Part shown: positions 24,101-40,375 of the stretch, in pieces
Layout: the number at the start of each line of letters is the position of its first letter
Position numbering within the stretch: position 1 is the stretch's first letter
DNA from: Methanosarcinaceae archaeon
Lineage (GTDB): Archaea > Halobacteriota > Methanosarcinia > Methanosarcinales > Methanosarcinaceae
Reading direction: 5' to 3'
Assembly (NCBI GenBank): GCA_030611265.1
Contig: JAUWQD010000003.1
Coordinates: forward strand, 1 to 64,000
Length of the DNA: 64,000 bases
Position numbers and translations under genes: made by a program
The notes under the pieces: generated by a model
What the model saw: the letters and a program-made list of their open reading frames with translations, nothing else
The model's database searches: none
What the model was told of the DNA's origin: nothing

Positions 24101-24538
24101 AATTTGCAATTTATTACTATATTCAATAGTACTGTCACTTACATAACCAAAACTTCCATCAAAATATTTAAAATCATAATAATTGGAGTAACTAGTAATA
24201 GTTGATCCACCAGTCACATTCATGGTTCCATTAAAGTTGACATTTATGCCGTATCCCCACATCCTTATTGTTGCATTAACCAAATTCAATACAGCACCGT
24301 CTTTAACATTGATATTAGCATGCACAGTACTATCATTATTGCTAAGTACAGTGCTCCAATGGCTGCAATTGGTAGAAGTAATATCATCGATCCCACTACT
24401 TGCATTATATATTACGGCCCCTGCAACCCCGCAAAACATTAAAAATGATGCAATACAAAACGCACAGGCAACAAGTATAGGCACTGCTCGGGCAGGGTAT
24501 CCAGTATATGTGTTTGTAGTGATGGTGATTGGACTCAT
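15146..24538 (-). CDS. Giant S-layer-associated multiheme c-type cytochrome (45 CXXCH)
   Basis: 3,130 residues. Order: signal/anchor near 15-42; right-handed beta-helix (NosD/PbH1-like, NNxI.NN repeats) about 60-830; heme domain about 960-2,950. I count 45 CXXCH, plus CX3CH (CYTYCH), CX5CH (CYDNVYCH) and CX8CH variants. Inserted are a pre-peptidase-like beta domain and two segments like the methanosarcinal S-layer domain (TWELGEGYSL-type: DNWDLGEGFSVYVADVSI). The C-terminus is Ig-like, ending in a membrane helix with RR. Many N-x-S/T sites suggest surface glycosylation. ANME-2 S-layer-fused cytochromes are proposed to move electrons to partner bacteria; here that role is inferred. Heme units repeat internally (HYGLSRSQGE twice), showing growth by duplication. 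It lies between a pentaheme cytochrome and ccmF. Confidence 0.93.
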   Translation of the reverse strand: MSPITITTNTYTGYPARAVPILVACAFCIASFLMFCGVAGAVIYNASSGIDDITSTNCSHWSTVLSNNDSTVHANINVKDGAVLNLVNATIRMWGYGINVNFNGTMNVTGGSTITSYSNYYDFKYFDGSFGYVSDSTIEYSNKLQIDTSNNLKIVNSIIRNNRYEGISLTSTSGNVNLTNSTIINNGPMGINIASSGNNILRDNNINGTLRGLYVSGNYTNDIDASNKVNGDLVYYKYNTNGVLIVGENVGHITLYNCSNVSIKDNTFVTDGDGIRLVSSTENVTIDNNIFSNSNYYGIALASSQANITNNIVTNSDETAILLSASHNSNMMNNVVSGGTDIALGIKLSNSNNNALVNNTVTATGDDVDGILVSSSNSNNLIENILIYSGSSNGIRLDDADSNNLINNSVKNKGKSGFYLDGGSSYNTIRDNDITNNDWGGITIDAGSHNNISNNEILSNDGGEVYDLRNGVTILSGTNNSVNNNNISLNTLNGTMVNSAGNRISNNILINNGDNGISIQADGNTFSNNTITMGATAGYGFDIKFGQYGNYIYQNNTVNGEKIYYYFNDNTMQSVTVEPLTTANVSNVGKISLIQCSNFLIENNILSNNKYIDGGIPSGIFLYDSTDNTISNNNVMNNYQGIYLYNSSNNFINNSNSINTSEDRGIYLDISNYNEITNNIFGSNVISGIYFNFSNYNNIIGNNVTGSPEGILLETSLNNSLSINNITNYLLSAIRLIEYSMNNTIIGNVHSIRNSAEFDICINDSNNNVIAPNETTATNYTFYLTGDTRLVTLDTVFNKTNVGYEDTSGITLMWRIDVFSWDNKHIEPIWGNLTVRYGDYSAVGGILVWDGQVPNANGRLSNNSMDYWGPPNSDDNWLPIIEYKENATGKVNYQSTPMNFSVVNMWDKLQSIDDKLYRNITTTIHNPGVTIIVNAGYTPNGKCYYCHMEKLTYTTMVHWTDYTANLTDLSDPYTPGRCIDCHDENDSASTPHGTGSGNDMLIQQSPQLCYNGSGNQNCHNTDTVRATLDQETEFNQITHHDLGDGKMSCFSCHGNHGTDYRFDLHRNYVDVGLKVYDSADYALCFVCHLEEKLVASMTDTGYLGSFNNQTNFRDEYYGRTGFGDGLDLPITRSNNNLHPGHKRYTCKYCHNPHGSNNPAVTRPSLDWTYITNITAPGSLYPYGDYTNQIMLDNPADWDNSTLNQAGGFDQSTCGGCHLKLPKQFVYREFINYESAGGPDCVGCHDSSDPDAIRKILNVSALKLAMHTNLSLDFRNGGELQGTGMNWTEWGTERGYNASNISTDNAICWSCHSTNGTPPYPGFHPDRTLAPYRCPKCHGPVSGQPPHTEGVVAAIDNHGPTTKGAGSVYIQTNVGTNGSCADCHNPSRLPDSAIGALTVWKYTGGFQDFTGRTTTGDVAHYGLSRSQGEDYDIANPLVNTSDCLFCHANSTNGAIWGNAMNVSGNMYGADTTNISECYTYCHVLPDYVGIVNENSIAHFHNSSVYSGGGPNCVDCHDVNSIYHIQSLVNVTSIAQGIHGNMGNNTIELVPGIDPRSKPCWGCHQSDGHEPEGMGDRNGVSDPSMKPWTCEDCHGRSSEWVDATHDGDSWLAASYPPNKLPPRIYAHYSNSSTVKTNISGAGGCVDCHVNSIDPYFNDTSEMVLGNTIFSNVSHYGLSRSQGEVIGITNPLFDTSNCGMCHNSTQNATIWGNATQNNHGNFTNYFADDGCYICHTTDGQTPVDFHAEKLSPDATGPDCLYCHRNAGINKFINFTLFNDSIHINLNSEATNSTILVYNSSKACWSCHGNGTQPDIHLSNLTAVRTCYDNVYCHGNTTLNQSVSVEEHFINGIDIQATNATDNASSCIQCHNLTEMKVSGAPTDKNGTHLVSHYGKNYTIISQYRNNINSTDYCLACHGNSNSIFHNASIITKTTTHGDNCSSCHGAGKIHDASLEVPSISGDSSECLGCHDGLTDKRVTSSEYTVSVHSAVNCADCHTPRQEFKGIIVNQESLAYNFTMISNITSLNATLVWEGDSTLGLTLHSPNGTNYSGNSINISSPQAGNWSAVVRDITGDAPFTVTINVTMKHGIMMAKDCDDCHITGFGITPLVFKHLPQQSNVPTDASCILCHESKLSSATAMGSSHYAPRVTLDTKDCIQCHNGSVDGWGNAPDQRNNTDFAFVTKTLTVDKPWELVDNYTITLIETTTNAAMFEIKKDGVLVQKDIAGLGGNIKYEVSGLGIDDTAIINVTVDQLFTAENSYVADLSGYMLSSHIHRETQNEQCYSCHDSEYRNNMPDGMNYYVLDKDLENVTLMEMTVNFTDGDKKTIAMGDNWDLGEGFSVYVADVSIERSNARLQLYRNETLLEDEIVSTSDYITHEETLLDRDINVFSAKVDSVFVGDSKFVVLTNVDLIAGDQKVVDGDFKLLQTAISAKYLTLDGSITVGEEPENFHSATVTPGGYSPDCISCHAGNGVAPILLDLDEFKQSVHVNLNNDTTYTSFITDDANKACWGCHGNSTGGEPDEHPTPYIGNHTPKSCMTCHASSKFGAKPIYSHYPGAEISTSGTCWDCHSNKQNSSKPQNEIAAASHYSAKKNLLNTSDCAVCHGDETNATLWGNAPQVSKHNSSNDCALCHAGEGITTFHDKGITITRDCETCHIDKQQAEKFNLTPILTHYPGAPDGKANTLEINDYTCRVCHNATNNTLHSDMEVREYQNESLGFCFPCHSTEGKFPHKSDTQLEEVRHGSGIKVVVGCDSCHAAEGVSKYHTPTVLGKSYLRGTVKYDTECTECHPEHEGREYQPYEGIKCEDCHNEYGSVHYAGLKIGQSNTTTSTCPLCHNEDADIFHELTHIVGNVSEEAYEPCGDCHDDTDALMEFSSSSSIIGGTMSTISQSALNESPITCTSCHNSSGMNSFHYDTYPMGTVQDPGWENWTGGNVTECKDCHTYQGGEPPFNATNMGTQGLSPAGTAHGFAPSCTICHGGADSISFHTLATSEFIPRLGVTIEPDVVYGNDVSLLQATVVLPQLTKLTRAEYFIDEIGRDGYGLPLEYIVGKSNDSSAVLGAVIDTSQLSYDKHPIFLHVKDSSGKWSKTEVVVLTVERPGGVAATEVLLKDIIPAFGFAGLLFLLWRRFR

Positions 24539-24677: not shown

Positions 24678-25187
24678 TTATTCCATGTAAGTCATCTTGT
24701 GAATAGTCTGGATATCCTGAATGTGACAAATGTCGCATGTGTAGCCACGTGTCATGTGTATTGTGATTATGTTTCCATAACTCGGGTCGGAAGGATTGGG
24801 ATAACCATGGCAAGAATCACATATCGACAAACTGTCAGGTAACTTTTGTGGGATTATTTGATCACCAACGTGGCATGTGACACATGTGAAGTTGTCAGAA
24901 GTGTCTTGTAATTTCTGCATGTGCAGGTCATGTATTCCGGTTCCGTGGCAAGCATCGCAGTAATTGCTGCCGTTTATGTGTTTTTTCTTATTCTCCGGAT
25001 TTACGTGACAGACGTTACAATTGACCGTTTGGTCAGGTATTGCTTCAAATTCGGGTATAATTACTTCTTGTTCGATATTATCATCTTTATCTACAAAAAC
25101 ATCCGTTGTTTCCGCTAGATAGATAACACTAAAAATAAGTAAAATACCTACAAATACTATCATTGATAAGTAATTTTTATCACTCAT
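24678..25187 (-). CDS. Membrane-anchored pentaheme c-type cytochrome
   Basis: A 169-residue protein. One hydrophobic segment (residues 8-25) serves as uncleaved anchor or signal. It is followed by an acidic linker and five CXXCH sites (CNVCH, CDACH, CVTCH, CDSCH, CDICH) with matching distal His residues. It is the first gene of the minus-strand cytochrome unit, 139 bases before the giant cytochrome. Inferred role: passing electrons from membrane carriers to the outer giant cytochrome. The spacing of hemes resembles small NapC/tetraheme-like proteins, but no specific family is certain. Confidence 0.88.
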   Translation of the reverse strand: MSDKNYLSMIVFVGILLIFSVIYLAETTDVFVDKDDNIEQEVIIPEFEAIPDQTVNCNVCHVNPENKKKHINGSNYCDACHGTGIHDLHMQKLQDTSDNFTCVTCHVGDQIIPQKLPDSLSICDSCHGYPNPSDPSYGNIITIHMTRGYTCDICHIQDIQTIHKMTYME

Positions 25188-25275: not shown

Positions 25276-25727
25276 TTTATTTAACACGACACAACAGTAC
25301 TCAATAACATTATTTATTAAACCTATATGAACCTATTTTGTAATTATATTTACATTAAATATTGACATTTTTCATTTTCAGAAAAAAATCCCCGTTTATA
25401 GAAGATTTACATCGTATCCTCCACATGTCCATCCCATCGAAAACATCTGCCGCATTTACTTTTTAGATTTTCGGAATCCTGACGTTTGTCGAGAAACATA
25501 GAGTCATTCCATATATTGTAAAACTGTTTTACCGCACTTGCCAACAGGCATCTGCATCAACATACTAAGAATAGGCCGTATCATCATTAGAATATACATG
25601 CAATTGATTTGACTGCACCACAGCAATCCTGCAGGTAATTGCTGTCGTTCTTTTGCCGATATAGCGCATCAAAAAATGCAATATTCAAATAATGTTGAAA
25701 AATTGTATGTGGTAAAAATAGATGTTA
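25276..25727. other. Intergenic region upstream of the cytochrome operon
   Basis: AT-rich, with no frame I would call. It is the original chromosomal sequence next to the displaced 3' end of tRNA-Glu, so it may hold the old tRNA terminator (T-rich runs at 25700-25725 on the minus strand). Confidence 0.4.
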
Positions 25728-25770
25728 TGCTCCGATGGGGATTTGAACCCCATTGGTTTCGGGCGGTTGG
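25728..25770. other. attL: tRNA-Glu 3' remnant plus inverted arm site
   Basis: Bases 25728-25752 match the T-arm/acceptor end of tRNA-Glu. No matching 5' acceptor (GCTCCGA on the minus strand) lies within reach, so this is a displaced tRNA end and not a second tRNA. The arm site follows at 25757-25770. Confidence 0.85.
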
Positions 25771-26630: not shown

Positions 26631-27290
26631 ATGCTCCGGCATGATCAGAACCCCATCAGTACTCCTACCCCTACTGTGCAGATCTGCAAGATAAGAGGTT
26701 TCTCTCTGGATATCCTTGGAGAACTGTATAGTAAGAATGTGTTAACCACTCCTGAAATTGCAGCAGCACTTGACTGTAAAATACCTTATGCAAGAGTGTA
26801 TTTACACCGACTTTATCAATATGGTTGCATAGAAAGGAAAGCACGTTGGGGATGGATAATCGAACCTCTTGGTACCGATATTTTAAACCTTAATAATAAT
26901 AATAATAATAATATTGATAACACAAAGATAACAGAAAGGACACAGAAAGATAACACAAAGATAACAGAAATGTCCAACGATTCACGCACAACCGTTGAGA
27001 GTAGGCAATTGAACCTATCTCTCTATGAAACAGATCCAAACGTAACCGAACCAGAGCGAGGGGTAGTAATGCTAATGGTATCTCATTATGAGCGTACCGG
27101 TGAGAAATACCGCTACTTCAAGGACATGTATGATTTTTGTGAGCAAGCAGGTGTATCAGCTGTAGGTGTCATGGAATTGCTTGCAAAGCTCAAGGAAGAA
27201 GGTGTGATCTACATCCGGAAAGAAGAAATGCTTGGAATGTGGAAGATAGGACTAAAAGTAAATTTCATAGAGAGGTTACAACATTGTTGA
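26631..27290 (+). CDS. Winged-helix regulator of the element
   Basis: 219 residues. Residues 25-85 form a winged helix (ILGELYSKNVLTTPEIAAALDCKIPYARVYLHRLYQYGCIERK). A low-complexity linker follows, with an Asn run coded by AAT/AAC repeats and repeated DNTKITE units. A second helical domain occupies 140-219 (VGVMELLAKLKEEGVIYIRK). The N-terminal domain resembles the C-terminal winged helix fused to the recombinase at 37692 (EIAKHFNKKPNYIRPYLHRLEKQG). The same pair is therefore split here and fused there. It ends 8 bases before the integrase. Confidence 0.75.
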   Translation: MLRHDQNPISTPTPTVQICKIRGFSLDILGELYSKNVLTTPEIAAALDCKIPYARVYLHRLYQYGCIERKARWGWIIEPLGTDILNLNNNNNNNIDNTKITERTQKDNTKITEMSNDSRTTVESRQLNLSLYETDPNVTEPERGVVMLMVSHYERTGEKYRYFKDMYDFCEQAGVSAVGVMELLAKLKEEGVIYIRKEEMLGMWKIGLKVNFIERLQHC

Positions 27291-27298: not shown

Positions 27299-28261
27299 AT
27301 GAAACATCTCTATGAATTTCTGGACGATTGTGCAGCGAGGGGTCTATCCTCTCGTACCACATCCACGTACAAAAGCAATGTAAGCCATTTCCTTGATCAT
27401 ATCGACAAAGATCCCACAGAGATACAGATGGATGATCTCCGGGCATTCCTGGCACATCTGAGGACCATGTCGTACACCGTAGGACATCAACACCGGCAAG
27501 GTGTCGCGCCGGCAACACTGAATGCATACTACTCAGCGATCAGCAGTTATTACGACTTCCTGATGTGGGAAGATATCATCGATTCCAATCCTATCCCGAA
27601 GTTCCGGAAACGGTATCTCAGAATCAAACCACAGAGGAACGGAGAGAACACAAGGCAACTGATCAGTATCAACACAATGAGAGAACTGATCCGTTTGTCA
27701 GAGGATCCACTCAGTAAGGCCTTAATGACATTCGCTGCAAAAACAGGCCTTCGAAAAGGCGAACTCATTGCCATGGATATTACGGACCTGAACTTCGAAC
27801 GTGCAGAGTTCACAATCCCGGCAAAAGCAAAGCGCACAAATCGCCTTGGCTTCATGGATGATGAAACGATCATAATCCTTCAGCAATACCTCGAATGGCG
27901 TGAGCCCAGGGCAAAAGATAACGCGCTGTGGATATCTCCATTTGGTCACAGAATGGGGAAGGACGGACCTTATGATATCATAACCTGCTATGCCCGGATG
28001 CTCGGGATCCATGACGCAAGAGGATCCTTAAACAAAAAATTTACGACTCACTGCTGCAGGCACTTTTTCACAACTCACCTCAGACGATCGGGAATGCCAA
28101 GGGAATTTATCCAGGAGCTCCGGGGAGATCGCAGGGGTGATGCGATAGACATATACGACCACATAGATCCGGAAGAACTCCGGAGATCCTACCTGCAGCA
28201 CGTCCCAAGGTTCGGACAGGTTGACAGATGCCAGGCAACATTAACGGAGATGATACATTGA
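27299..28261 (+). CDS. Tyrosine recombinase (integrase 1)
   Basis: 320 residues. A SAM-like core-binding domain spans 1-100, then the catalytic domain with Arg152 (TGLRKGE), Lys near 177, His251-x-x-Arg254 (HCCRHF) and Tyr286 (IYDHI). All catalytic residues are present. It is a close paralogue of the recombinase at 37692, with long identical stretches such as GENTRQLISI. Likely the integrase for the 25728/41374 att pair, although the right-half copies compete for that role. Start: ATG 27299 after the AGGT-rich leader. Confidence 0.92.
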   Translation: MKHLYEFLDDCAARGLSSRTTSTYKSNVSHFLDHIDKDPTEIQMDDLRAFLAHLRTMSYTVGHQHRQGVAPATLNAYYSAISSYYDFLMWEDIIDSNPIPKFRKRYLRIKPQRNGENTRQLISINTMRELIRLSEDPLSKALMTFAAKTGLRKGELIAMDITDLNFERAEFTIPAKAKRTNRLGFMDDETIIILQQYLEWREPRAKDNALWISPFGHRMGKDGPYDIITCYARMLGIHDARGSLNKKFTTHCCRHFFTTHLRRSGMPREFIQELRGDRRGDAIDIYDHIDPEELRRSYLQHVPRFGQVDRCQATLTEMIH

Positions 28262-28461: not shown

Positions 28462-28530
28462 TAATTTCGTACATTTTTTATTGTATTTTGCAGTACAAGT
28501 CCTTGTAGTTTGTTGTACGGATCCTTGCAC

Positions 28531-28782
28531 ATGATTTCAAAAGACTTGTACTTAAAAATAATATCCTTGTACCGCGCTGGAGCCACCCCTTACGCTATCT
28601 CAAGTGAGCTTAAAATCAATTACCGCACAGCGAAACGGTACATCGCAGCACATGAGGTAATAGTCGCGGAAATCTCTGAATCCTTGTACTCTTGTATTTT
28701 GGCAAAAACTGAACAAAACGACGAAAACCTGCAAATGTTTGCACATAAAATACAACAAAATACAATACCTCAAGAGGAGTGA
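28531..28782 (+). CDS. Helix-turn-helix protein
   Basis: 83 residues. A resolvase/Hin-like HTH sits at the N-terminus: IISLYRAGATPYAISSELKINYRTAKRYI. It is paralogous to the minus-strand gene at 33487-33741. Upstream DNA (28480-28560) carries repeated TTGTAC/GTACAA words that could be its operator. ATG 28531 is preferred over 28510 because the HTH starts directly after it. Confidence 0.65.
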   Translation: MISKDLYLKIISLYRAGATPYAISSELKINYRTAKRYIAAHEVIVAEISESLYSCILAKTEQNDENLQMFAHKIQQNTIPQEE

Positions 28783-28784: not shown

Positions 28785-29078
28785 ATGAAACAATCTAACA
28801 ATCCGGATGAAAATACCCAAACAAGTTCTCTGGCCAACGACATTAAAAGGAATTTTGGCATAGATGTTGGGGAGATTGGAACAGAACTTGGCAAGGATAT
28901 CCTCAAGGAGAATATCCTTGGGCGCAAACCAAAAAATACCGCACCCCGATCGAAGTTCGGGCGAACCCTCGAAGCCCTCACGAATGCCTGGTGGGTCCCG
29001 GCAGCCGTCTACTTCTCATTAGTGATCGCAATAATAGGCGCGAAGGTCCTGGCAAAGCTGGCAGGGGTGGAGATATGA
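28785..29078 (+). CDS. Small protein with C-terminal membrane helix (NFGID family)
   Basis: 97 residues. A polar N-terminus contains DIKRNFGIDVGEIGTELGKDIL, a basic middle follows, and then one membrane helix (VPAAVYFSLVIAIIGAKVL). The NFGID region recurs in the minus-strand gene at 35465-35665, so this is a small element-specific family. SD GAGGAG precedes ATG 28785. First gene of the putative virion block. Confidence 0.6.
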   Translation: MKQSNNPDENTQTSSLANDIKRNFGIDVGEIGTELGKDILKENILGRKPKNTAPRSKFGRTLEALTNAWWVPAAVYFSLVIAIIGAKVLAKLAGVEI

Positions 29079-29227
29079 GCGATCCTGTGAACGATCCAGT
29101 TCCTCCGGAGAGCACGCTCATCAAAGACCCTATATTCGCTTGGAGTGATAGGGATATGGCGAGAGTGTTTTGGTATGGCATACTGACAGGTGTTGGTGTG
29201 GCGTTGGTGGGATCTGCATGTCTATGA
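29075..29227 (+). CDS. Small membrane protein
   Basis: 50 residues, Pro-rich at the start, with a single hydrophobic C-terminal segment WYGILTGVGVALVGSACL. It overlaps both neighbours (ATGA at 29075; next ATG at 29218), pointing to coupled translation. Function unknown; suits a small virion membrane protein. Confidence 0.55.
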   Translation: MSDPVNDPVPPESTLIKDPIFAWSDRDMARVFWYGILTGVGVALVGSACL

Positions 29228-29442
29228 AAAAAAAACCTCAAGAGTCCGTATGCGTCACCGAAACACAGATGGAGCATATCATAGATGCCGCCCGGGAGGA
29301 AAAAGGCGCGTGTCCGAAAGCGAAAGCCTTCGTAAATGCCTTCAAGCCCAAAAAGGAGAGCCTTGAGTCTGTGGACTTCTTGGAAAAGAAGATCACAAAA
29401 AAGGTTGACAAATTCTTGAGTGATGTACAACGTTGGTTCTAA
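29218..29442 (+). CDS. Small charged helical protein
   Basis: 74 residues, rich in Lys and Glu, predicted to be mostly helical with no membrane segment (KAFVNAFKPKKESLESVDFLEKK). A second in-frame ATG at 29224 is possible. The overlap with the preceding gene supports expression. No recognised family. Confidence 0.5.
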   Translation: MSMKKKPQESVCVTETQMEHIIDAAREEKGACPKAKAFVNAFKPKKESLESVDFLEKKITKKVDKFLSDVQRWF

Positions 29443-29528
29443 CACCAAATATTAACATTTTTGATAGGTTTATATTCTTTTTTTCCATTCTTGAATTACT
29501 AACCTGGCATGTGCCAGGAGGGTTTCTA

Positions 29529-29657
29529 TTGGCAAAGAAAGGAATGACTAAAGGACTCAGGAAAGCGCAGTGTGTCCGGAAGCAGAAAGGCAAAGGAAAG
29601 AGCCTGACGGCTGCAAGGAAGATCTGCAAGGTAAAGACAAAAGGGAAACGGAAGTGA
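29529..29657 (+). CDS. Very basic small protein
   Basis: 42 residues from TTG 29529, chosen because GGAGGG lies just upstream. About 40 percent Lys+Arg (KGLRKAQCVRKQKGKGK), with two Cys. It looks like a DNA-compacting or nucleic-acid-binding virion protein. Reading further upstream would add a hydrophobic, unlikely N-terminus. Confidence 0.5.
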   Translation: MAKKGMTKGLRKAQCVRKQKGKGKSLTAARKICKVKTKGKRK

Positions 29658-29661
29658 CCTT

Positions 29662-29766
29662 ATGAACGAAAGTGAAGTAAAAGTTCAGATCCAGAAACTG
29701 GAAGAGAGAATCGCAAAGCTCGAAGGTACGAGCGCACCCTCTGAAGATGACACAGAGGAGGAATAA
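29662..29766 (+). CDS. Coiled-coil micropeptide
   Basis: 34 residues. VQIQKLEERIAKLEG has clean heptads, followed by an acidic tail (SEDDTEEE). It is placed tightly between two genes with 4- and 2-base gaps. Probably a small scaffold or assembly peptide; function inferred from position only. Confidence 0.45.
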   Translation: MNESEVKVQIQKLEERIAKLEGTSAPSEDDTEEE

Positions 29767-29768
29767 TT

Positions 29769-30149
29769 ATGGCAAAAAGACTGACCGGAATATCAAAGAA
29801 ATGGCTCGCATACATCCCACAGCTTGCAGCAGTGTATGCATTCTATGAGTACTATGCTGCAGTAGGCTTTGAAGGGATCAAAGCAGATCTCGAAGCATTG
29901 AACTTCGAAGGCCTCAAGGCAAGAGCAAAAGAGATCCTTGCAGCGTTAGCAACATTCCTTATCGGAGATGTGATCGCATCAAAGGTCAAAGACAAGTACA
30001 TGAAGACTGCAATTCGCTCAATTGCGTACTACGTAGGAGCAAAGCAGCTCGCATCAGCACTTGACAAGGGATCGACCATCTCAAGAATGACCGGAGATGA
30101 ACCACTGTTCAAGGCAACAGTGACACAGACCGCAATGAGGGGATACTGA
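29769..30149 (+). CDS. Predicted virion-associated membrane/amphipathic protein
   Basis: 126 residues, Ala-rich and helical, with hydrophobic stretches near 12-35 (LAYIPQLAAVYAFYEYYAAVG) and 58-75. A basic middle (KVKDKYMK) and a polar tail follow. Directly precedes the candidate capsid gene, sharing one base (TGATG). Fits a small structural protein. No homologue recognised. Confidence 0.55.
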   Translation: MAKRLTGISKKWLAYIPQLAAVYAFYEYYAAVGFEGIKADLEALNFEGLKARAKEILAALATFLIGDVIASKVKDKYMKTAIRSIAYYVGAKQLASALDKGSTISRMTGDEPLFKATVTQTAMRGY

Positions 30150-30937
30150 TGGGATATACTGTAATTGGATTCTATGAATCAAGAACAGGTGTAGCCGCAC
30201 TCGATAACGTTGCAGGCCTCGCTGATCAGTCTGTCGCCGTAGCAGGTGACAACATCACAGTCCCGCCTAAATGGAATGAGATCATCGCTGCATGGGTTGG
30301 TATGTCAAACGCAGCTGACGTTTTGGTTGCTGCAAGACTCTCTGCACCATCGATGAGAGGCAAGACTCTTTTGGATCTTGCAAACCTCGAGGCGATCGCT
30401 GCAGGTGGCACTCTGGAACCATCAAGCCCGACACCTATCAACATATACCTGAACAAGCCGATCAAGCTAACGTCAGGCGAGTTCCTGAACTTGCTGCAGG
30501 AGTCAGACGGAACAACCGCTGCGAATCTCTGCACCGGCATTATATTCCTTGGTGATGGCGACTATGGTAACCCATACGCAGGCATGCCAGTTCAGACCGT
30601 GAGAGCAACAGGAGCGACCACACTGACAGCAAATGCATGGTCAGCTTGCACCATCACGCTTGATCAGCAGCTCGCTGCAGGACGCTATGCGATTGTAGGA
30701 ATGCGTGCACAGTCTGCCGGCGCAAAGGCTGCCAGGCTTGTCATGCAGGAAACACCGGCACGTCCCGGAGTCATTGCATACGACTCAAATGCAGACATCG
30801 AGCATCCAATGTTCCGCAATGGAAACCTTGGGGTATTGGGTACTTTCGTACACACTGCAATCCCACAGGTAGAGTTCCTGAGCTTGTCTGCAGACACATC
30901 TGAAACCATCTTCTTCGATATCGTGAAGATAGCGTAA
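30149..30937 (+). CDS. Candidate major capsid protein
   Basis: 262 residues with no Cys-rich or enzymatic motif. It is composed mainly of beta-forming stretches separated by Pro/Gly turns (NIYLNKPIKLTSGEFL, TITLDQQLAAGRYAIVGMRAQ). Low charge, even composition and position in the centre of the small-gene block suit a beta-barrel capsid protein. Whether it is a single or double jelly roll cannot be told from sequence. Codon use resembles strongly expressed genes (mostly C-ending). It is not recognised as a known capsid family. Inference; an alternative is a cell-surface or spike protein, though no signal peptide is present. Confidence 0.5.
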   Translation: MGYTVIGFYESRTGVAALDNVAGLADQSVAVAGDNITVPPKWNEIIAAWVGMSNAADVLVAARLSAPSMRGKTLLDLANLEAIAAGGTLEPSSPTPINIYLNKPIKLTSGEFLNLLQESDGTTAANLCTGIIFLGDGDYGNPYAGMPVQTVRATGATTLTANAWSACTITLDQQLAAGRYAIVGMRAQSAGAKAARLVMQETPARPGVIAYDSNADIEHPMFRNGNLGVLGTFVHTAIPQVEFLSLSADTSETIFFDIVKIA

Positions 30938-30947
30938 GGTGGTTAGC

Positions 30948-31451
30948 ATGGCAACCTATTGGGAAGGAAGCAAGAAGATCTCAAAGACCCAGTACGATGC
31001 GATACAGGCAAAGCATGCCGCATGGACTGGGCCTAAGGTTGTAGATGCATCTACTGTCAGGCAGCCAAGCGGTAAGCAGCCTAGTTCGGCTGCTCCAACT
31101 CCACTGATCATGGATACCCAGAAGATTATAGAGGACTATCTCAAATCACCTGAAGGTATTGCTGAAGCAGAAAAAGCAAAGCTCCTGTTTTCAGGGGGTA
31201 AACAGCCGGTTGATACAAGTGCCTTGAACGCAATTGATCAGGACACTCTCCGGAGACTCCAAGAGGAAGCAGACCGCAAGCGAATTGAAGAGCAACTCGC
31301 AACAGCTGCTACTCACGGCAAAGAGATCGTGTTTGAGTTCTCAAAACCGGTAACATCAAAGGCAAATGCATATGTCTCAAAACTTGTGAAAATGCTTGGT
31401 GGGAAGCGGTCCTACATTGAGAATCAAACTAAACTTGTGGTGGTGATGTAA
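30948..31451 (+). CDS. Putative structural/scaffold protein with coiled coil
   Basis: 167 residues from ATG 30948, chosen because AAGGTGGT sits upstream; a GTG at 30939 is alternative. An N-terminal module (YWEGSKKISKTQYDAIQAKH) is followed by a Pro/Ser linker, a charged coiled coil (TLRRLQEEADRKRIEEQL) and a compact C-terminus. Shares one base with the next gene. Function unknown. Confidence 0.5.
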   Translation: MATYWEGSKKISKTQYDAIQAKHAAWTGPKVVDASTVRQPSGKQPSSAAPTPLIMDTQKIIEDYLKSPEGIAEAEKAKLLFSGGKQPVDTSALNAIDQDTLRRLQEEADRKRIEEQLATAATHGKEIVFEFSKPVTSKANAYVSKLVKMLGGKRSYIENQTKLVVVM

Positions 31452-31756
31452 TGGTTGTACCTATTATGGCAGCTGTTCTGATCATCGCAGCCATCATCGG
31501 CGGAACTCTGATCACTGCATACTGGAGAGATGCAGTAACAAAAGAATTCGATAGCGAGATGGCTCTAAGTAGAGATGATACAATAGACGATATCATGGAT
31601 GATCCTTCTATGTCTGATGATCAAAAGTTACAGCTGCTCATGAAGTATATGGGAACAAGTGCGCCTTCATCCTTTGACTTTGGGGAACTTGGCAAATACA
31701 TCCCTATTGTCGTAGGTGGCTATGTTGCTGCAGCAGTGCTTGGGGGTAAAAAATGA
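31451..31756 (+). CDS. Two-helix membrane protein
   Basis: 101 residues: an N-terminal membrane helix (IMAAVLIIAAIIGGTLITAYW), an acidic middle (DDTIDDIMDDPSMSDDQ) and a second hydrophobic segment (YIPIVVGGYVAAAVLGG). Such proteins are typical of membrane-containing archaeal viruses. Overlaps the next ATG by 4 bases. Confidence 0.6.
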   Translation: MVVPIMAAVLIIAAIIGGTLITAYWRDAVTKEFDSEMALSRDDTIDDIMDDPSMSDDQKLQLLMKYMGTSAPSSFDFGELGKYIPIVVGGYVAAAVLGGKK

Positions 31757-31914
31757 CAGAGATAGACCTGGTTTCCGTTGTAACAAATCAAGGATTTGCT
31801 ATAGCGGTTGCCCTTTTTCTTTTGTACGAACGGCAAAAGTTCAATGAAAGGATAGTAAAGCATCTTGAAAAAATCGCAATCATTATCGATGAGCGCATGC
31901 CTAAGGAGACATAA
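31753..31914 (+). CDS. YvrJ-like small membrane protein (holin-like)
   Basis: 53 residues: a short N-terminus, the hydrophobic segment GFAIAVALFLLYE and a charged C-terminal helix (RIVKHLEKIAIIID). This order matches the YvrJ family, common in phages and predicted prophage regions. Assignment is by pattern and moderately weak. ATGA overlap with the previous gene. Confidence 0.5.
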   Translation: MTEIDLVSVVTNQGFAIAVALFLLYERQKFNERIVKHLEKIAIIIDERMPKET

Positions 31915-31916
31915 TT

Positions 31917-32204
31917 ATGGTATATAAACCACGAGCAGTAACAGTCACGACAACGCCGGCTATGGAAGTTAATCCGGATCCTGACCGGGATGTTGTTGTG
32001 ATCACAAATTTATCCGGAGCAACGATCTACTGGGGAGTTGATCCGGAACTCAGCATATCAAACGGTGCACCGATCTTCAACAATGGAAGAGCAGAGTTCT
32101 CACGACTGAATGGAAGGGATCCCACAATTGCCAGGTACTTGGTGATAGCTGCAGGATCCGGAGATGTCAGGATAGATGAAGAGTCTGTAGGTGAGGTGAG
32201 GTAA
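31917..32204 (+). CDS. Small beta-rich virion protein (decoration or penton candidate)
   Basis: 95 residues, nearly all beta strand and turn (VVVITNLSGATIYWGVDP, RYLVIAAGSGDVRIDEES). It has the pattern of small capsid-associated proteins that present charge-rich strands. Starts two bases after the previous stop and shares its last base with the next gene. No family assigned. Confidence 0.5.
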   Translation: MVYKPRAVTVTTTPAMEVNPDPDRDVVVITNLSGATIYWGVDPELSISNGAPIFNNGRAEFSRLNGRDPTIARYLVIAAGSGDVRIDEESVGEVR

Positions 32205-32641
32205 TGTCTACATATTCGGATCCTGCGCTGATCCTTCCTGGGACTGTGGGGCAGACTGAGTTAGACGCGGCTTCGAAAAAAGGGGTTGCGAATGGTGCTG
32301 CAGGATTGGATGCATCCGTAGAAGTTCCAGATGCCCAATTGTCGGGATTGGTTGCTCGAATTGCATCTGGTTCATTTGTAGGGAACAATTCTGCAAACAG
32401 AGCGATACCTCATGGTCTTGGTTACACTCCTTCTAGGGTGATATTATCTGCAAACAGCCAATACTACAATAATATAACTATTCAAGTCCCAGGCTGGATA
32501 TCTCGTTCAATGTCGGCAGTGGATTATCATATGGCTGTGACAGCGGCGGACGATACGAATTTTTATGTGGGGAACGCCTCACAGTATAATTATTCTGGAA
32601 ATGGTACAGGTATAACTTATACATGGGTGGCATTCGCATGA
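32204..32641 (+). CDS. Tail-fibre or spike-like protein
   Basis: 145 residues. The N-terminal segment DAASKKGVANGAAGLDASVEVPDAQLS is typical of short phage fibre proteins. It is followed by a beta-rich C-terminal domain (ANRAIPHGLGYTPSRVIL, GTGITYTWVAFA) like the H-type or receptor-binding tips of phage fibres. Likely host recognition. The stop overlaps the next ATG (ATGA). Confidence 0.6.
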   Translation: MSTYSDPALILPGTVGQTELDAASKKGVANGAAGLDASVEVPDAQLSGLVARIASGSFVGNNSANRAIPHGLGYTPSRVILSANSQYYNNITIQVPGWISRSMSAVDYHMAVTAADDTNFYVGNASQYNYSGNGTGITYTWVAFA

Positions 32642-32850
32642 AATACTGGAAAAAATCAAACGGTGATTGTGGTACAATGGACAATGACGGGTTTGTTCCT
32701 GATTCAGAAGAGGCCACAAAGGCAGAGTATGACGCATACATAGCATCGTTGCCGGTAGTTCCAGAGATTGATCATAAGGATGAATTCTCTAAGCTGCTGT
32801 CTGCAGATGAGAAGATCGACTATATTGCTAAACAGCTTAAATTTGCCTGA
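32638..32850 (+). CDS. Small protein after the fibre gene
   Basis: 70 residues: KYWKKSNGDCGTMDNDGFVPDSEEATKAEYDAYIASLP, then an acidic helix. It resembles short proteins that follow tail fibres and act as assembly chaperones. Position and size support this; sequence identity to a family is not claimed. Last gene of the block, followed by an AAAGGT-type palindrome. Confidence 0.45.
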   Translation: MKYWKKSNGDCGTMDNDGFVPDSEEATKAEYDAYIASLPVVPEIDHKDEFSKLLSADEKIDYIAKQLKFA

Positions 32851-33054: not shown

Positions 33055-33225
33055 ATGCCTAAATTACAACTTGGTACTGATGGGAAGTACATTCTTACGG
33101 TCCCTAAATCATTTGTTCTTGCGAAGGGTTGGAAAAAAGGGGACAATATAGGTTTTGCAATTGTGGACAATATCAATGGACCCCTGCAGGGAGATATCTA
33201 TCTACGCAGAAGTAAAACAGCGTAA
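33055..33225 (+). CDS. AbrB/SpoVT-like regulator, copy 1
   Basis: 56 residues: MPKLQLGTDGKYILTVPKSF, VLAKGWKKGDNIGF and a short beta tail. This is the swapped-hairpin AbrB fold used by MazE-type antitoxins and transition regulators. Near-identical in design to 40625-40795. There it overlaps an intact serine recombinase; here the recombinase downstream is dead. Confidence 0.75.
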   Translation: MPKLQLGTDGKYILTVPKSFVLAKGWKKGDNIGFAIVDNINGPLQGDIYLRRSKTA

Positions 33226-33400
33226 AAAGGGATATCCCACGGTTAGCACTAAGAATTAAGACCTTCAGCAGCAGTATAACGCGCTCATTACAGCCAGCAT
33301 ACTGCAGGAAGAGATCCTTATTGACTATAAGCAGTACCGCTAACAATCGCACGAATTACCAGATCCTGAACAATGAGATCTGAATGTACCGGATAGATCA
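33226..33400 (+). pseudogene. Decayed serine recombinase (N-terminal part)
   Basis: Read against 40795-40990, this stretch keeps recognisable words (GATATCCCACGGTTAGCAC, CAGCAGCAGTATAACGCGCT, AGCAGTACCGCTAACAATCGCA). It carries frameshifts, stops and deletions, and fades out after the counterpart of YRIDRL. With the AbrB gene ahead, it is a broken copy of the cassette at 40625-41252. Confidence 0.75.
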
Positions 33401-33486
33401 CCCCTCACAAGTCAATGATCTGGCTTGTGTCGGTGGCCAGGCATTTAGTCTTTCCAGATTGTCCGGACATTTGAGTACTTAACCCT

Positions 33487-33741
33487 TTAATCCTTGGATC
33501 GGTATGATTGAAGTACCTTACTCGCGAGTTTACTCCATAAATTCGGCGGATTTTCCACCCGATCAGATATTTCATTGTAAAGATGCTTTTCAAATTCGTC
33601 TTTTATAGGTTGATACATCAAAACATACTTGTTTGCAGTAGCCCAACTGATTTTCAATTCTTTAGCAATCCGATAGGTCGTTTCTCCATCAAACATTAAA
33701 TCTATGATCTTTTTTTGCTTTGCTTTTGAGATTTGACCCAT
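33487..33741 (-). CDS. Helix-turn-helix protein, paralogue of 28531
   Basis: 84 residues. GQISKAKQKKIIDLMFDGETTYRIAKELKISWATANKYVLMYQ is a DNA-binding HTH; the C-terminal half is helical. ATG 33741 is chosen because the HTH starts right after it. Its upstream region contains the CAATTGAGATA repeat array, probably its binding sites. Paralogous to the left-half HTH gene. Confidence 0.7.
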   Translation of the reverse strand: MGQISKAKQKKIIDLMFDGETTYRIAKELKISWATANKYVLMYQPIKDEFEKHLYNEISDRVENPPNLWSKLASKVLQSYRSKD

Positions 33742-33786
33742 GGGCAAAAAATGCCAGAATAACATAAAAAGATATCTCACAATGTA

Positions 33787-33977
33787 TCTCAATTGAGACA
33801 TTTTACAATACAAGTTTTGCACTTGCATAAGGCAAAGCCAATTGAGATACTAAAACGCTATGCATAGGTCAAACTTGCATATCTCAATTGGCAATAAAAA
33901 TAGCTCAATTGCAATTGAGATAGTCAATTGAGATACTAAAACGCTATGCATAGGCTGATACTTGTATATCTCAATTG
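33787..33977. repeat. CAATTGAGATA repeat array (operator cluster or origin)
   Basis: Contains a TCTCAATTGAGA palindrome at 33787-33798, then two near-identical 53-56-base cassettes at 33837-33892 and 33925-33977. Each is bounded by CAATTGAGATA...TATCTCAATTG and encloses ACTAAAACGCTATGCATAGG. Between them is TAGCTCAATTGCAATTGAGATA. Seven half sites in 190 bases, beside an HTH gene in a mobile element, suggest iterons or a regulator array. Confidence 0.7.
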
Positions 33978-34149
33978 GATGAAAAAAACATACGTTTTTC
34001 ATGTTTTTTGCTAAAATTACTCTTTTTGACTGAAAATAAGAGAATTAGCGTAAATTATCACAGTTTGCAGGGTATGACTTGAAGCCAGAAGTTCATTAAT
34101 GACCAGAATTTCAACAGGGCAGATCTGATGTAAAATAAACTGTTCGTCG

Positions 34150-34235
34150 AAAACAATGATAAATATAGTCGAAAATATTGATAAATATCTATATTTTGCA
34201 CATGTTTAAATATTCTGGACATCTATTTGTAAAAT
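34150..34235 (+). promoter_or_regulatory. Direct-repeat promoter of the AbrB-DUF3800 pair
   Basis: GTCGAAAACAATGATAAATATAG is followed directly by GTCGAAAATATTGATAAATATC, a 22-base tandem with few changes. The repeats precede the AbrB-like ATG at 34236, as expected for autoregulation. Confidence 0.45.
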
Positions 34236-34409
34236 ATGGTTACAATACTATCACGCACAACGATTTCAGGAAATAACATCCCAATATCAGGGAAGTATTA
34301 CACGCGAACAGTGATCAGTCCTATTATCGCTGAAAAATTGAATGTCAAACCAGGTGATGGGCTTGTTTTCATCGAAGATGAAGGCAGGATTTACCTAGAA
34401 AAAGCATAA
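34236..34409 (+). CDS. AbrB/MazE-like DNA-binding protein
   Basis: 57 residues: TTISGNNIPISGKYYTRTVISPIIAEKLNVKPGDGLVFIEDEGRIYL. The LxVKPGD and short final strand are typical of the AbrB fold. Ends 38 bases before the DUF3800 gene; may regulate or neutralise it. One of four AbrB-like genes in the element. Confidence 0.65.
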   Translation: MVTILSRTTISGNNIPISGKYYTRTVISPIIAEKLNVKPGDGLVFIEDEGRIYLEKA

Positions 34410-34447
34410 TCATAAAGGCCCTGATCTAATTAATGAGGAAAGAAAAA

Positions 34448-35047
34448 ATGCACATATATCTTGATGAAAGTGGCGATCTCGGATTTCATTCAAACTCATC
34501 AAATCATATTATAATTGCTCTGCTTATCACAAAAAATCCCCATACAATTGAAAGATGCATAAAGAAAATCAGGCAGAGGAAGCTAAAGAAAAAATTGAAG
34601 GAACTGCCAGAAATCAAGTTTAACAAATCCAATGACTACATAAGAGAAAAAACCCTTAAATGCATCGTAAAGGAACCGATAGATATCGCTTATATCGTCC
34701 TTAATAAAAATAGGGTGAACCCCAATAGGCAATTCCACAAGGAAAAAATTTACAACTTTATTACAGGGCATCTCATGTGCAGTCTACCTTTTGAAAATGA
34801 TATTCATTCAAAGTTGATTGTTGATAAGAGAAGCCACAATAAGATAATCAGATCCGACTTTGATCAATACATAAAAGAAAAAGCGGCATTTAACCTGGAC
34901 ATTACTCATGAGAATTCAGAGTATAACCAATGCCTGCAAGCCACTGATTTTATCGCAGGTGCTATTTTTCGCAAATACGAATCCGGTGATGATAGGTTTT
35001 ACAATATAATTGAGGATCGGATAACGGTTGTTGAACATTTATTATAA
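34448..35047 (+). CDS. DUF3800 protein
   Basis: 199 residues from ATG 34448 (GAGGAAAG upstream; ATG 34433 is alternative). The start motif MHIYLDESGDLGF is the DUF3800 hallmark, with acidic residues thought to bind metal. An SKLIVDKRS strand and CLQATDFIAGAIFRKYES helix complete the RNase-H-like arrangement proposed for the family. DUF3800 proteins often sit in mobile elements and defence loci; function is unproven. Pairing with an upstream AbrB-like protein suggests a toxin/antitoxin-like unit. Confidence 0.75.
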   Translation: MHIYLDESGDLGFHSNSSNHIIIALLITKNPHTIERCIKKIRQRKLKKKLKELPEIKFNKSNDYIREKTLKCIVKEPIDIAYIVLNKNRVNPNRQFHKEKIYNFITGHLMCSLPFENDIHSKLIVDKRSHNKIIRSDFDQYIKEKAAFNLDITHENSEYNQCLQATDFIAGAIFRKYESGDDRFYNIIEDRITVVEHLL

Positions 35048-35204
35048 AAAAAGAAAATGAATCGAGCGACCCCTATTTACTTGGATCCATGCACCTCAAG
35101 GTACATTACTATTTCTATAGGACTTACTCGCTCAATTAGTAGTTAGTTGTTAGTACAATTTAAAACTTACGTTCGGTTTACCAGTACCTTCTGTCACATC
35201 AACC

Positions 35205-35420
35205 TCAAAGGATATCCTCAGGGCTTACGCCGGCAGATCAGATACTCAAGGATCTGAACATCTCCGGAACTTCAAAAGGGCAGAGATGCAATCAGGTACT
35301 ATGAGGATATCCCTGCCTGCAGCAGGCCAGAGTTTGAGATCCGGATACTCGAGGACAGGGACATCTCCAGAACTCCAACAGAACAAATCTACAAGTATCC
35401 GGAGCATGGATGATCATAGA
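35205..35420. repeat. Degenerate ~105-bp repeats, block 1
   Basis: Two imperfect units built around GATACTCAAGGATCTGAACATCTCCGGAACT and CACTATGAGGATATCCCTGC. Three further units lie at 35758-35995. No intact frame spans them. The sense frame reads like fragments of one protein (EIRILKDLDISGTP), so they may be shreds of a lost gene. Confidence 0.5.
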
Positions 35421-35464
35421 AGGTCAAAGGTTGAATGCCAGGCGTTGTTGTGTCAAACCTGCAG

Positions 35465-35665
35465 CTATATTCCACCTGCCCTGAGTTTGCCTAGTACTAC
35501 TTTTTCCTGTAGTTCTTGACGACTGTTTCGGTGATCTTCTCTATATCTATAGTTCTTGACGACTGTTTCGGCGATCTTCTCTATATCAATTCCAAAATTT
35601 TCCTTGATTTCTTCGACCAGTGATCCGGTAGTACTCCTATCCTGTTGTGTCGGTTCTTTTGACAT
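35465..35665 (-). CDS. NFGID-family small protein, frame altered by a 40-bp duplication
   Basis: 66 residues: MSKEPTQQDRSTTGSLVEEIKENFGIDIEKIAETVVKNY, then a scrambled tail. Paralogous to 28785-29078 around NFGID. A 40-base tandem duplication (35509-35547 and 35548-35587) repeats DIEKIAETVVKNY DNA but changes frame, replacing the C-terminal membrane helix found in the paralogue. Probably non-functional. Confidence 0.5.
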   Translation of the reverse strand: MSKEPTQQDRSTTGSLVEEIKENFGIDIEKIAETVVKNYRYREDHRNSRQELQEKVVLGKLRAGGI

Positions 35666-35757
35666 GATTTTCCTCATTGTTATGTTGTATTGTACTCCAT
35701 TTTTAACTTACCTAAAACAATGATATTTGGAATTGAAAACAACATTGCAAAAAGCAT

Positions 35758-35995
35758 GCCAGAGGTTGAGATCAGGATACTCAAGGATCTGGATATCTCC
35801 GGAACTCCGAGAGGGTAGATCTGCAACCAGACACTATGAGGACATCCACCTGCAGCATGTCAGAGCTTGATATCCTGATACTCAAGGATCTGAACGTCTC
35901 CGGAACTTCAAGAGGGCAGAGCTGCAACCAGACACTATGAGGATATCCCTGCAGCTCTATTCCCACCTGCAGCAGATCAGAGTTTGAGATCCGAT
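35758..35995. repeat. Degenerate ~105-bp repeats, block 2
   Basis: Three more units of the 35205-35420 repeat, the last cut where it meets GATAGTACTCCTATCCTGTTG. That word is also found at 35632-35650 in the NFGID gene. The junction shows recombination between repeat copies. Confidence 0.5.
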
Positions 35996-36439
35996 AGTAC
36001 TCCTATCCTGTTGTGTCGGTTCTTGTTTCATCAGGGCAATTTCTTTTAAGACTGTCCATTTATGTATATCTGACCTGTAACGTAGCAACAAAAAGATTAA
36101 GAATATTAGAGTGACACCAAAAAGAGCTGCAACTATACCAACAATGGAATTAGACAGTAAGATAGCCCTACCAGCCATATTTATGAAGATCGAGAGGGAA
36201 AGTAAAACAAAACCAAATACGACTGCCGCGTCATCCTGAAATATTTTTGACCGAGCTAATCTATTATCACAAATTTTAATAATTTGTACTAATTCAACGT
36301 CACCAGCTTCATCAAATGAAATATCATTCTTGGTTTCTTCAAAGTTGTTCCCAAAACTCCTCCAAGCTAAATTAAAATCGTGACACCATCCAGCTTTTTC
36401 AGTGCATTTTTCCAGTAGAACCTCAACATTTGACTTCAT
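35957..36439 (-). CDS. Two-helix membrane protein with chimeric C-terminus
   Basis: 160 residues from ATG 36439, which overlaps the end of the preceding small gene. A polar N-terminal half (VEVLLEKCTEKAGWCHDFNLAW) is followed by two membrane helices (AAVVFGFVLLSLSIFI, GIVAALFGVTLIFLIFLLL). The last 24 residues (QEPTQQDRSTIGS...) are the start of a NFGID-family protein, attached by recombination. Element-specific; function unknown. Confidence 0.5.
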   Translation of the reverse strand: MKSNVEVLLEKCTEKAGWCHDFNLAWRSFGNNFEETKNDISFDEAGDVELVQIIKICDNRLARSKIFQDDAAVVFGFVLLSLSIFINMAGRAILLSNSIVGIVAALFGVTLIFLIFLLLRYRSDIHKWTVLKEIALMKQEPTQQDRSTIGSQTLICCRWE

Positions 36440-36557
36440 GTTCCAGATCCTTAATTCTAGATTCCACAGTTCGACTATAAGCAGCATAAGCTAACAGAAG
36501 CGTAGCTGGTGCAGTAATGAGGGATGTCAATATAATATTTACGTACTCAGTTGCCAT
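36423..36557 (-). CDS. Small membrane protein, paralogue of 36870-37079
   Basis: 44 residues: MATEYVNIILTSLITAPATL, LLAYAAYSRTVESRIKDLE. This matches MVTEYVNIGLTAIGSASITL and the following YRVKIEARFKDLE in the gene at 36870-37079. One membrane helix plus a charged helix. The copy is shorter at the C-terminus; overlaps the next gene by 17 bases. Confidence 0.55.
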   Translation of the reverse strand: MATEYVNIILTSLITAPATLLLAYAAYSRTVESRIKDLEHEVKC

Positions 36558-36660
36558 GTCAGTTATCTCCTTTATTTGCTTTCAGTTTCTCTTTTACGCA
36601 ACACTCACAGCGCCAGAGCAACCACTATTATCATTGCATCTTAAACATTATAACCCATTG

Positions 36661-36873
36661 TCATGTATCACTGATTGCTTTTGCAACAATGTACAACCCA
36701 ACAAGGATTAATCCAAGCTTGATCAATTCGTCCAGAGAACTGTCCTCTGCAGAAGGTTGCTCTTTTATAATTAAATCACGCAATTCGACTTCTTCCTTGT
36801 GATTTAGGATGCTAAATTTGGATTTACCAAGAAGATATTCCATCTTTTCGGCTTCTTGAGGTGTCAGGTTCAT
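36661..36873 (-). CDS. Small protein with C-terminal membrane helix
   Basis: 70 residues from ATG 36873 (4-base overlap with the preceding stop). The N-terminal LTPQEAEKMEYLLGKS and charged middle are followed by LIKLGLILVGLYIVAKAI, a tail anchor. No family recognised; part of the three-gene minus-strand membrane set. Confidence 0.5.
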   Translation of the reverse strand: MNLTPQEAEKMEYLLGKSKFSILNHKEEVELRDLIIKEQPSAEDSSLDELIKLGLILVGLYIVAKAISDT

Positions 36874-37079
36874 TTGTCCCACCCTTTGAAAACTTTCTCT
36901 GCTTGTTCTAATCCAACTTGCTGCAGAAGATCTTTGAGCGGTTCCAGCAACTTGATTTCATTCTCCAGATCCTTAAATCTGGCTTCTATTTTCACACGGT
37001 AACTAAAATAAGCAAATAAAAGTGTAATGGATGCAGAACCAATAGCTGTTAAACCAATATTTACATACTCAGTCACCAT
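36870..37079 (-). CDS. Small membrane protein with coiled coil
   Basis: 69 residues. One membrane helix (IGLTAIGSASITLLFAYF) is followed by a charged heptad region (KIEARFKDLENEIKLLEPLKDLLQQ). The SD-like AAGGAGAT lies upstream. Design resembles holin- or YvrJ-like phage proteins; paralogue at 36423-36557. Confidence 0.55.
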   Translation of the reverse strand: MVTEYVNIGLTAIGSASITLLFAYFSYRVKIEARFKDLENEIKLLEPLKDLLQQVGLEQAEKVFKGWDK

Positions 37080-37181
37080 GTAATCTCCTTTATTTGCTTA
37101 ATTTGCCCTGCTTTTCTAACCAAATCATTATTGCTTCAGTTACAGCCACACCCATTTTGATGTTCTTTTCAGCCCTATAAA

Positions 37182-37436
37182 TTATAACCACGTATTAAGT
37201 AACATAATCAATGAAATTCCAAAGACCACACCAAGTACGACCCCTAATAAAAGAGTCCAGGTTTGTGTTTTATCAAATTCATGTTTCGGCATTGACACTA
37301 TACCGTCTTTAATTTCCATCGTAGCACACCCTCTTCTAACCAAGCCTTTTCGTTGTAGTAGTTCCTCGCCGCAGCCTTTACAAAAACTATCGCTATCCTC
37401 TATTTCATTTCCACAATTTTGACAATATTGTGCCAT
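37182..37436 (-). CDS. Zinc-ribbon membrane protein
   Basis: 84 residues. The N-terminal CQNCGNEIEDSDSFCKGCGEEL is a zinc ribbon of the DZR/zf-ribbon_3 kind. A linker follows, then one membrane helix (LLLGVVLGVVFGISLIML). Common small archaeal architecture. Lies between the small membrane genes and the AbrB-like gene. Confidence 0.65.
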   Translation of the reverse strand: MAQYCQNCGNEIEDSDSFCKGCGEELLQRKGLVRRGCATMEIKDGIVSMPKHEFDKTQTWTLLLGVVLGVVFGISLIMLLNTWL

Positions 37437-37458
37437 ACTCAATCACCTGATGAACGCT

Positions 37459-37596
37459 TTAAAGCGGTTTGATCAAGATGCCTTCTTCCGTGTCTACAAC
37501 CTCAATATAGTCTTTGAGATTATACTTAGTTCTTAATTCTTTAGGAATTGTGATCTTTCCTTCAGAACTCATTGGTTTAATGATTCTATCTGCCAT
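37459..37596 (-). CDS. AbrB/MazE-like regulator
   Basis: 45 residues: MADRIIKPMSSEGKITIPKELRTKYNLKDYIEVV, then EEGILIKPL. A textbook AbrB hairpin with KITIPKELR. Divergent from the integrase at 37692; the intervening operator (37663-37683) could serve both. A CGCTTTAAAGCG palindrome overlaps its 3' end. Confidence 0.75.
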   Translation of the reverse strand: MADRIIKPMSSEGKITIPKELRTKYNLKDYIEVVDTEEGILIKPL

Positions 37597-37662
37597 GAAT
37601 ACTTTTTTAGTTCTAAAAGTAAATAAGACTTTTGGAAGATTAGTCGATAGGTATATGTAGTT

Positions 37663-37683: not shown

Positions 37684-37691
37684 GAACGGTT

Positions 37692-40323: not shown

Positions 40324-40375
40324 TGGAAAATACCCAACATCCGGGAAACCGGGGAAAAATGCATTTTTCTTGATT

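Follow-up and report, generated by a model that had tools for sequence, protein, structure and literature searches.

The stretch of DNA analyzed here, a 64,000-nucleotide window at the start of contig JAUWQD010000003.1 of a Methanosarcinaceae archaeon, contains 13 small open reading frames (ORFs) packed on the plus strand at 28785–32850, and the question raised by this locus is whether they build a virus particle and, if so, of what kind. On the evidence, the block is likely to hold the morphogenesis genes of a temperate virus that resides in the archaeal chromosome and whose particle would be tailless, icosahedral and probably membrane-containing. An earlier note on this DNA had described 13 small plus-strand genes of virion-like character. 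Both descriptions hold, the second through a PM2-like fold match of the capsid candidate, a match of another protein to phage fiber families, and relatives in an integrated element and on a circular contig. Neighboring ORFs overlap by 1–4 bases at 7 of the 12 junctions and are separated by 2–10 bases at four and by 86 bases at one. This is not chance, and the ORFs can be taken as real genes because the block recurs, with its order kept, in a genome from another genus of the family (G033). There, on contig L003, 12 of the 13 genes have counterparts in the same order with amino acid identities of 29–87%; the remaining one, 29075–29227, has no clear sequence similarity in L003, where a 40-residue single-helix ORF occupies its slot. 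The 95-residue protein (87% identical) and the 262-residue protein (80%) are the two most conserved, the basic peptide (76%) and the 126-residue protein (69%) come next, and the remaining block proteins are 29–61% identical. The ratio of nonsynonymous to synonymous substitution rates (dN/dS) is 0.055–0.44 in all aligned genes where it is computable, being lowest within the block for the 95-residue protein (0.055) and the 262-residue protein (0.105), with the spike gene much less constrained; synonymous sites are near saturation in this comparison and saturated in two block genes. The block genes are under purifying selection.

What the earlier note missed is the integrated element around the block, with its integrase, its regulator and a candidate initiator whose gene contains 11-bp iterons. 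The 3′ end of a tRNA-Glu(CTC) gene is present as a 25-bp direct repeat (24 of 25 positions identical), the left attachment copy being at 25728–25752 and the right one at 41374–41398 within the tRNA gene itself (41373–41448), both on the minus strand. In a genome of the same genus (G106), the left flank (25568–25752) is contiguous with an intact tRNA-Glu gene, and therefore the 15.6-kb insertion of which the block is part is absent there and the site is empty. A tyrosine integrase (27299–28261; Phage_integrase, E = 9e-20; 60% identical to the L003 integrase), a winged-helix protein of 214–219 residues (26631–27290), a helix-turn-helix regulator (28510–28782; HTH_23, E = 0.001, under the cut-off; 39% identical in L003) and a MazE/AbrB-like small DNA-binding protein (33055–33225; 66–70% identical in L003; Pfam MazE at E = 0.13 only), all on the plus strand in the window, are common to the window and G033 elements. 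The G033 element is syntenic, measures 8.69 kb between 23-bp repeats of the purQ 3′ end (7967–7989 and 16657–16679 of L003), and looks complete. Its insertion at the purQ 3′ end restores the last purQ codons, and the window element uses tRNA-Glu despite the similarity of the two integrases.

The fold of the 262-residue capsid candidate (30149–30937) was predicted. An AlphaFold2 model built from a four-sequence alignment has a predicted local distance difference test score (pLDDT) of 57 and a predicted template modeling (TM) score of 0.57, the C-terminal half, mostly at about 70–85, being better than the N-terminal half. In a Foldseek comparison with 350,542 chains of the Protein Data Bank (PDB), capsid protein P2 of PM2 was the best match (E = 5.9e-5, probability 1.00, TM-score about 0.27) with no other match below 1e-3. 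Among the full-length matches that follow are the capsid proteins of PBCV-1, PRD1 and PR772 together with cellular proteins, one of them an exo-arabinofuranosidase that we regard as a double-jelly-roll protein of the DUF2961 type, and in a viral library the Wip1, GC1 and STIV capsids were matched. As a control, a model of the same protein with a pLDDT of 33 gave no Foldseek match below E = 3. Low TM-scores such as these are expected if the two domains of the model are misoriented. The earlier note had proposed structure prediction and fold comparison for its capsid candidate, and the closest fold is the PM2 double jelly roll rather than an adhesin or pilus; with moderate support from the model, the protein is probably, but not provenly, a double jelly roll, as in the lineage to which PM2 and adenovirus belong. 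The best viral fold match, D5L264, is an uncharacterized 152-residue protein from an uncultured virus that is 24% identical to the 262-residue protein over 133 columns; HAV2 was rejected as its source, none of the HAV2 ORFs shown being 152 residues long.

Among 186 genomes of the order, the 262-residue protein is found only in the window genome and G033, and 394 genomes sampled from the phylum yielded one further carrier, the metagenome-assembled genome CR_Bin_179 of the methane-oxidizing Methanophagales (ANME-1). It has two contigs of interest, L018 (JAFNKG010000094.1, 5,423 bp), which closes to a 5,346-bp circle through a 77-bp terminal overlap, and L019, a contig fragment. The capsid relatives on them have 27–30% identity by BLAST and a P of 3e-17 in profile comparison (hhalign), and are followed by a beta protein of 90 or 122 residues, spike-like proteins and membrane proteins. 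These two beta proteins and the 95-residue protein of the window (31917–32204) each match the same region of phrog_30212 weakly, and profile comparison of two pairs gives a P of 8e-4. Because both the capsid candidate and the small beta protein recur on L018 and L019, they make up the conserved core, kept in a third lineage and on a circular contig. The 95-residue protein is a candidate for the vertex (penton) protein. L018 resembles a complete minimal virus genome, without a recognizable replication protein, and by eye a basic region like the 41-residue peptide of the window forms the N-terminal half of a 142-residue protein just before its capsid gene. A first scan of genome contigs gave no relatives, a second gave only the two Methanophagales contigs, and PDB sequences yielded nothing beyond chance matches.

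The viral-family search that the earlier note had recommended was made with hidden Markov models. Across Pfam, PHROGs and NCBIfam, the capsid candidate and the 95-residue protein have no match except the weak phrog_30212 one common to the beta proteins, and the 145-residue protein (32204–32641; 45% identical in L003), which the note had called fiber-like, matches the phage minor tail family phrog_1446 over residues 23–131 (E = 6.5e-6), making it the natural candidate for the spike. The basic peptide of 41–42 residues (29529–29657) has a pI of 11.7, as its earlier description as basic implied, and may condense the genome. No protease or polymerase was found in the element, as the note had stated, and its statement on packaging also stands: no credible Walker A protein is present in any of the four elements and the Pfam scans contain no ATPase, Walker-A-like strings being confined to an integrase, a resolvase frame, short spurious frames and the capsid candidate, where the string is not conserved. 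PolB gave no match among the proteins scanned, nor did a rolling-circle Rep family in Pfam and PHROGs, nor a ParB-like protein or PD-(D/E)XK nuclease among the element proteins scanned with Pfam, PHROGs and NCBIfam.

Replication of the element may depend on the 219-residue protein, which is 66% identical in L003 and winged-helix-like at both ends. Its N terminus has winged-helix matches (FaeA/MarR), and its C terminus matches the DnaD-like helicase loader family phrog_7498 (E = 6e-4); the protein also matches Pfam DnaD_N (E = 0.003). In the middle of the gene, at 26916–26970 on the plus strand, are five 11-bp iterons (GATAACAGAAA) with an [AG]TAACA core, and the G033 gene has the same array (L003 9478–9534). 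The periodicity of the array was reached in 0 of 2000 synonymous-codon shuffles of either gene, and a period of 11 is not divisible by three; what the gene encodes does not account for the periodicity. Because the array is present in both genes with a period that codons do not explain, it suggests that the protein is an initiator with a candidate origin inside its own gene. The O protein of phage lambda is an initiator that carries its origin in this way. L018 has neither the initiator nor iterons. A Rep-Arvir-type initiator was rejected, since its catalytic residues lie beyond position 280 and its C-terminal domain is near 400–470, making it far larger than the proteins here (PMC13107129).

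The membrane proteins of the block raise the leading alternative, that it belongs to a pleomorphic membrane-vesicle virus or a vesicle-transmitted plasmid, like a pleolipovirus or pR1SE, in which vesicles would be coated by the small membrane proteins and the beta proteins would serve as spikes on their surface. The membrane proteins of the earlier note are recovered by hydropathy in five genes, one of them borderline. These encode proteins of 97 residues (28785–29078; one helix), 50 residues (29075–29227; one helix), 126 residues (29769–30149; the borderline case, membrane-associated, directly 5′ of the capsid gene, dN/dS 0.19), 101 residues (31451–31756; 38% identical in L003) and 53 residues (31753–31914). 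The last was described as YvrJ/holin-like, and the matches exist (phrog_4898 holin, E = 0.008), but that to YvrJ (E = 2.8e-4) is under the curated Pfam cut-off. Most of these small proteins have one helix, and the abundance of such proteins, the small genome and the lack of a packaging ATPase would all suit vesicles. However, the 262- and 95-residue proteins, the most conserved, have no membrane segment by hydropathy, unlike membrane-anchored spikes, and the fold search indicates icosahedral capsid proteins. A vesicle origin is therefore judged unlikely, and where the earlier note left the choice between icosahedral and pleomorphic particles open, the evidence favors the icosahedral form.

It is rather improbable that the element is an integrative plasmid and the block a cell-surface adhesin or carbohydrate-binding apparatus with jelly-roll domains. 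The fold also occurs in cellular DUF2961-type proteins and other cellular families are known to share it (PMC8812541), the exo-arabinofuranosidase is among the fold matches, and the L019 gene in the spike slot has a carbohydrate-binding domain (CBM_4_9, E = 2.6e-4, under its cut-off), which is also as expected for exchangeable receptor-binding parts. Against a surface apparatus, the 262- and 95-residue proteins have no apparent signal peptide, the fiber protein matches phage families, and the gene order is PM2-like, the capsid gene being set among genes for small basic and membrane proteins, with the spike downstream. A satellite or capsid-forming parasite, with its own small shell but dependent on a helper virus to package, replicate or release its genome, would fit the lack of an ATPase, polymerase and protease and the L018 circle without a recognizable replication protein, but is very unlikely, as no helper was identified, a candidate initiator is encoded by the window and L003 elements, and viruses of the Odin and FLiP groups ordinarily have no such ATPase either (PMC5894146, PMC8812541).

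For the integrated icosahedral virus preferred here, the following course may be proposed. The tyrosine integrase would insert the circular genome at the tRNA-Glu 3′ end, and after excision the winged-helix/DnaD-like protein would bind the iterons in its own gene and recruit host replication proteins. The double-jelly-roll protein would assemble into trimeric capsomers that cover a vesicle carrying the small one-helix proteins in its membrane, and the 95-residue beta protein would close the five-fold vertices and bear the 145-residue spike. The basic peptide would condense the genome, which, given the absence of an encoded packaging ATPase, would be enclosed as the particle assembles rather than pumped in, and the resulting particle may be infectious.

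Several observations weigh against this reading. The capsid model is of low confidence, with its pLDDT of 57, an N-terminal half mostly below 60 and TM-scores of about 0.27, and hhalign finds no sequence similarity between the 262-residue protein and PM2 P2 (P = 0.03 over 46 columns). Searches of phages and plasmids with tblastn and scans of IMG/VR gave no relative, although such scans rely on short identical peptides, so that distant relatives escape them. A shallow search of 53 Methanophagales genomes with L018 DNA, in which five candidates per genome were scored, gave no CRISPR spacer. No lysis gene was found beyond the weak YvrJ/holin match, and virion evidence is likewise absent. Finally, the copy in the window may be a defective one, since it has lost the resolvase end beside the block and a second element fills 33.3–41.37 kb. 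Two short DNA matches resembling CRISPR spacers (in G080 and G012) were rejected, as they are not in repeat arrays.

The note's claim of an undescribed virus type survives insofar as the phage, plasmid and IMG/VR collections gave no match; the published Odin-group and Chaacviridae viruses were compared by description only. With Corticoviridae (PM2, Belvinaviricetes), the element shares the best structural match and the length of its capsid protein (262 residues versus 269 in PM2), a capsid gene flanked by those for small basic and membrane proteins with a spike downstream, and a circular genome with regulators, but it lacks the P9 packaging ATPase and the P12 nicking initiator and shows no capsid sequence similarity, its host is archaeal, and it integrates. 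The Odin group (Yutin et al. 2018; Huginn virus) is alike in its archaeal hosts, sporadic integrase, candidate jelly-roll minor capsid protein, helix-turn-helix and AbrB/MazE-like genes and size (7–11 kb; 8.7 kb here). It is also alike in that a small conserved gene immediately precedes the capsid gene; here this is the gene of the 126-residue protein, with a 1-base overlap, which resembles Odin cons1 in its position. Both the Odin group and FLiP lack the packaging ATPase, and it has been proposed that their genomes are enclosed as the particle assembles (PMC5894146, PMC8812541). In gene content and size, the differences are that the element gives no match to the ParB and PD-(D/E)XK nuclease of the Odin group and that the relative in Methanophagales measures only 5.35 kb. 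Chaacviridae and Ixchelviridae (Coyopavirales) of ANME-1, the host group of L018, are tailless and icosahedral with a predicted double-jelly-roll capsid lacking sequence homologues. However, the described Chaacviridae are linear with terminal inverted repeats, protein-primed PolB and 10–11 kb (PMC9894754), whereas here there is site-specific integration with direct repeats and a circular relative. Finnlakeviridae (FLiP) and PhiCjT23 have a very small double-jelly-roll capsid protein (239 residues in PhiCjT23), small circular genomes and temperate relatives, but infect Flavobacterium with circular single-stranded DNA, and the FLiP group replicates by a rolling circle, whereas the present elements yielded no Rep endonuclease. 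Methanosarcina spherical virus (MetSV) is also a small non-tailed virus with many small genes, but is linear with PolB and an annotated putative ATPase; it was rejected as a relative, there being no tblastn match to the 262- or 95-residue protein. Helvetiavirae (Sphaerolipo- and Simuloviridae) have two single-jelly-roll capsid proteins and a packaging ATPase, in contrast to the one full-length two-domain match and no ATPase here, and Pleolipoviridae have a membrane-anchored spike and a membrane protein as main virion proteins, whereas the two most conserved proteins here have no membrane segment. The element most likely belongs to the PM2-like branch of Varidnaviria (Belvinaviricetes), as part of a new group of family rank made up of small viruses without tails. 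As a variant it looks unusually small, and it does not look categorically new, ATPase-less double-jelly-roll viruses being already known in the Odin group and FLiP.

The remaining block genes encode proteins of 72 residues (29224–29442; 61% identical in L003), 34 residues (29662–29766; acidic and coiled-coil-like, counterpart at L003 12424–12546), 167–170 residues (30948–31451, with a possible GTG start at 30939; the C-terminal third is conserved) and 70 residues, 3′ of the spike gene (32638–32850; 56% identical). Between the virion block and the tRNA, 33300–41372 is a second, partly degraded element with two tyrosine integrases (37692–39080, with a C-terminal winged helix and GGTAACA repeats, and 39058–40323), DUF3800, tandem 101-bp repeats and remnants of the helix-turn-helix gene (33487–33828, minus strand) and a membrane gene (35465–35677, minus strand) of the first element. 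The serine resolvase (resolvase/invertase models; 68% identical to L003 15798–16304), which in G033 is directly 3′ of the MazE-like gene, lies in the window only at the far end of this second element, at 40737–41252 on the plus strand, as the right end of the composite insertion. Beside the integration site, 15146–24538 encodes a 3130-residue multiheme cytochrome-like protein with 45 CxxCH motifs and, next to it, 24678–25187 on the minus strand encodes a 169-residue protein with five.

A bolder claim, possible but more doubtful than not, is that these elements form a new archaeal lineage whose members occur in two classes (that of a methanogen-type family and that of Methanophagales), with a double-jelly-roll capsid, no packaging ATPase, a lambda-O-like initiator with an internal origin and genomes down to 5.35 kb, smaller than any such virus in the literature compared. 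Its capsid might lie below T=21, the smallest so far observed in the double-jelly-roll lineage (PMC9719478). If autonomous, the 5,346-bp relative would have the smallest double-jelly-roll genome in the literature compared, against 7.6 kb for PhiCjT23 and 7–11 kb for the Odin group, and double-jelly-roll viruses without a packaging motor have been discussed as relics of the earliest stage of their kingdom (PMC8812541). The G033 provirus has clean attachment repeats and its assembly is near-complete; should the strain be in culture, it may therefore be possible to induce the element. If the reading is true, the 8.7-kb integrated and 5.35-kb circular forms would make testable both the minimum size of such a virus and the enclosure of DNA without ATP-driven packaging.

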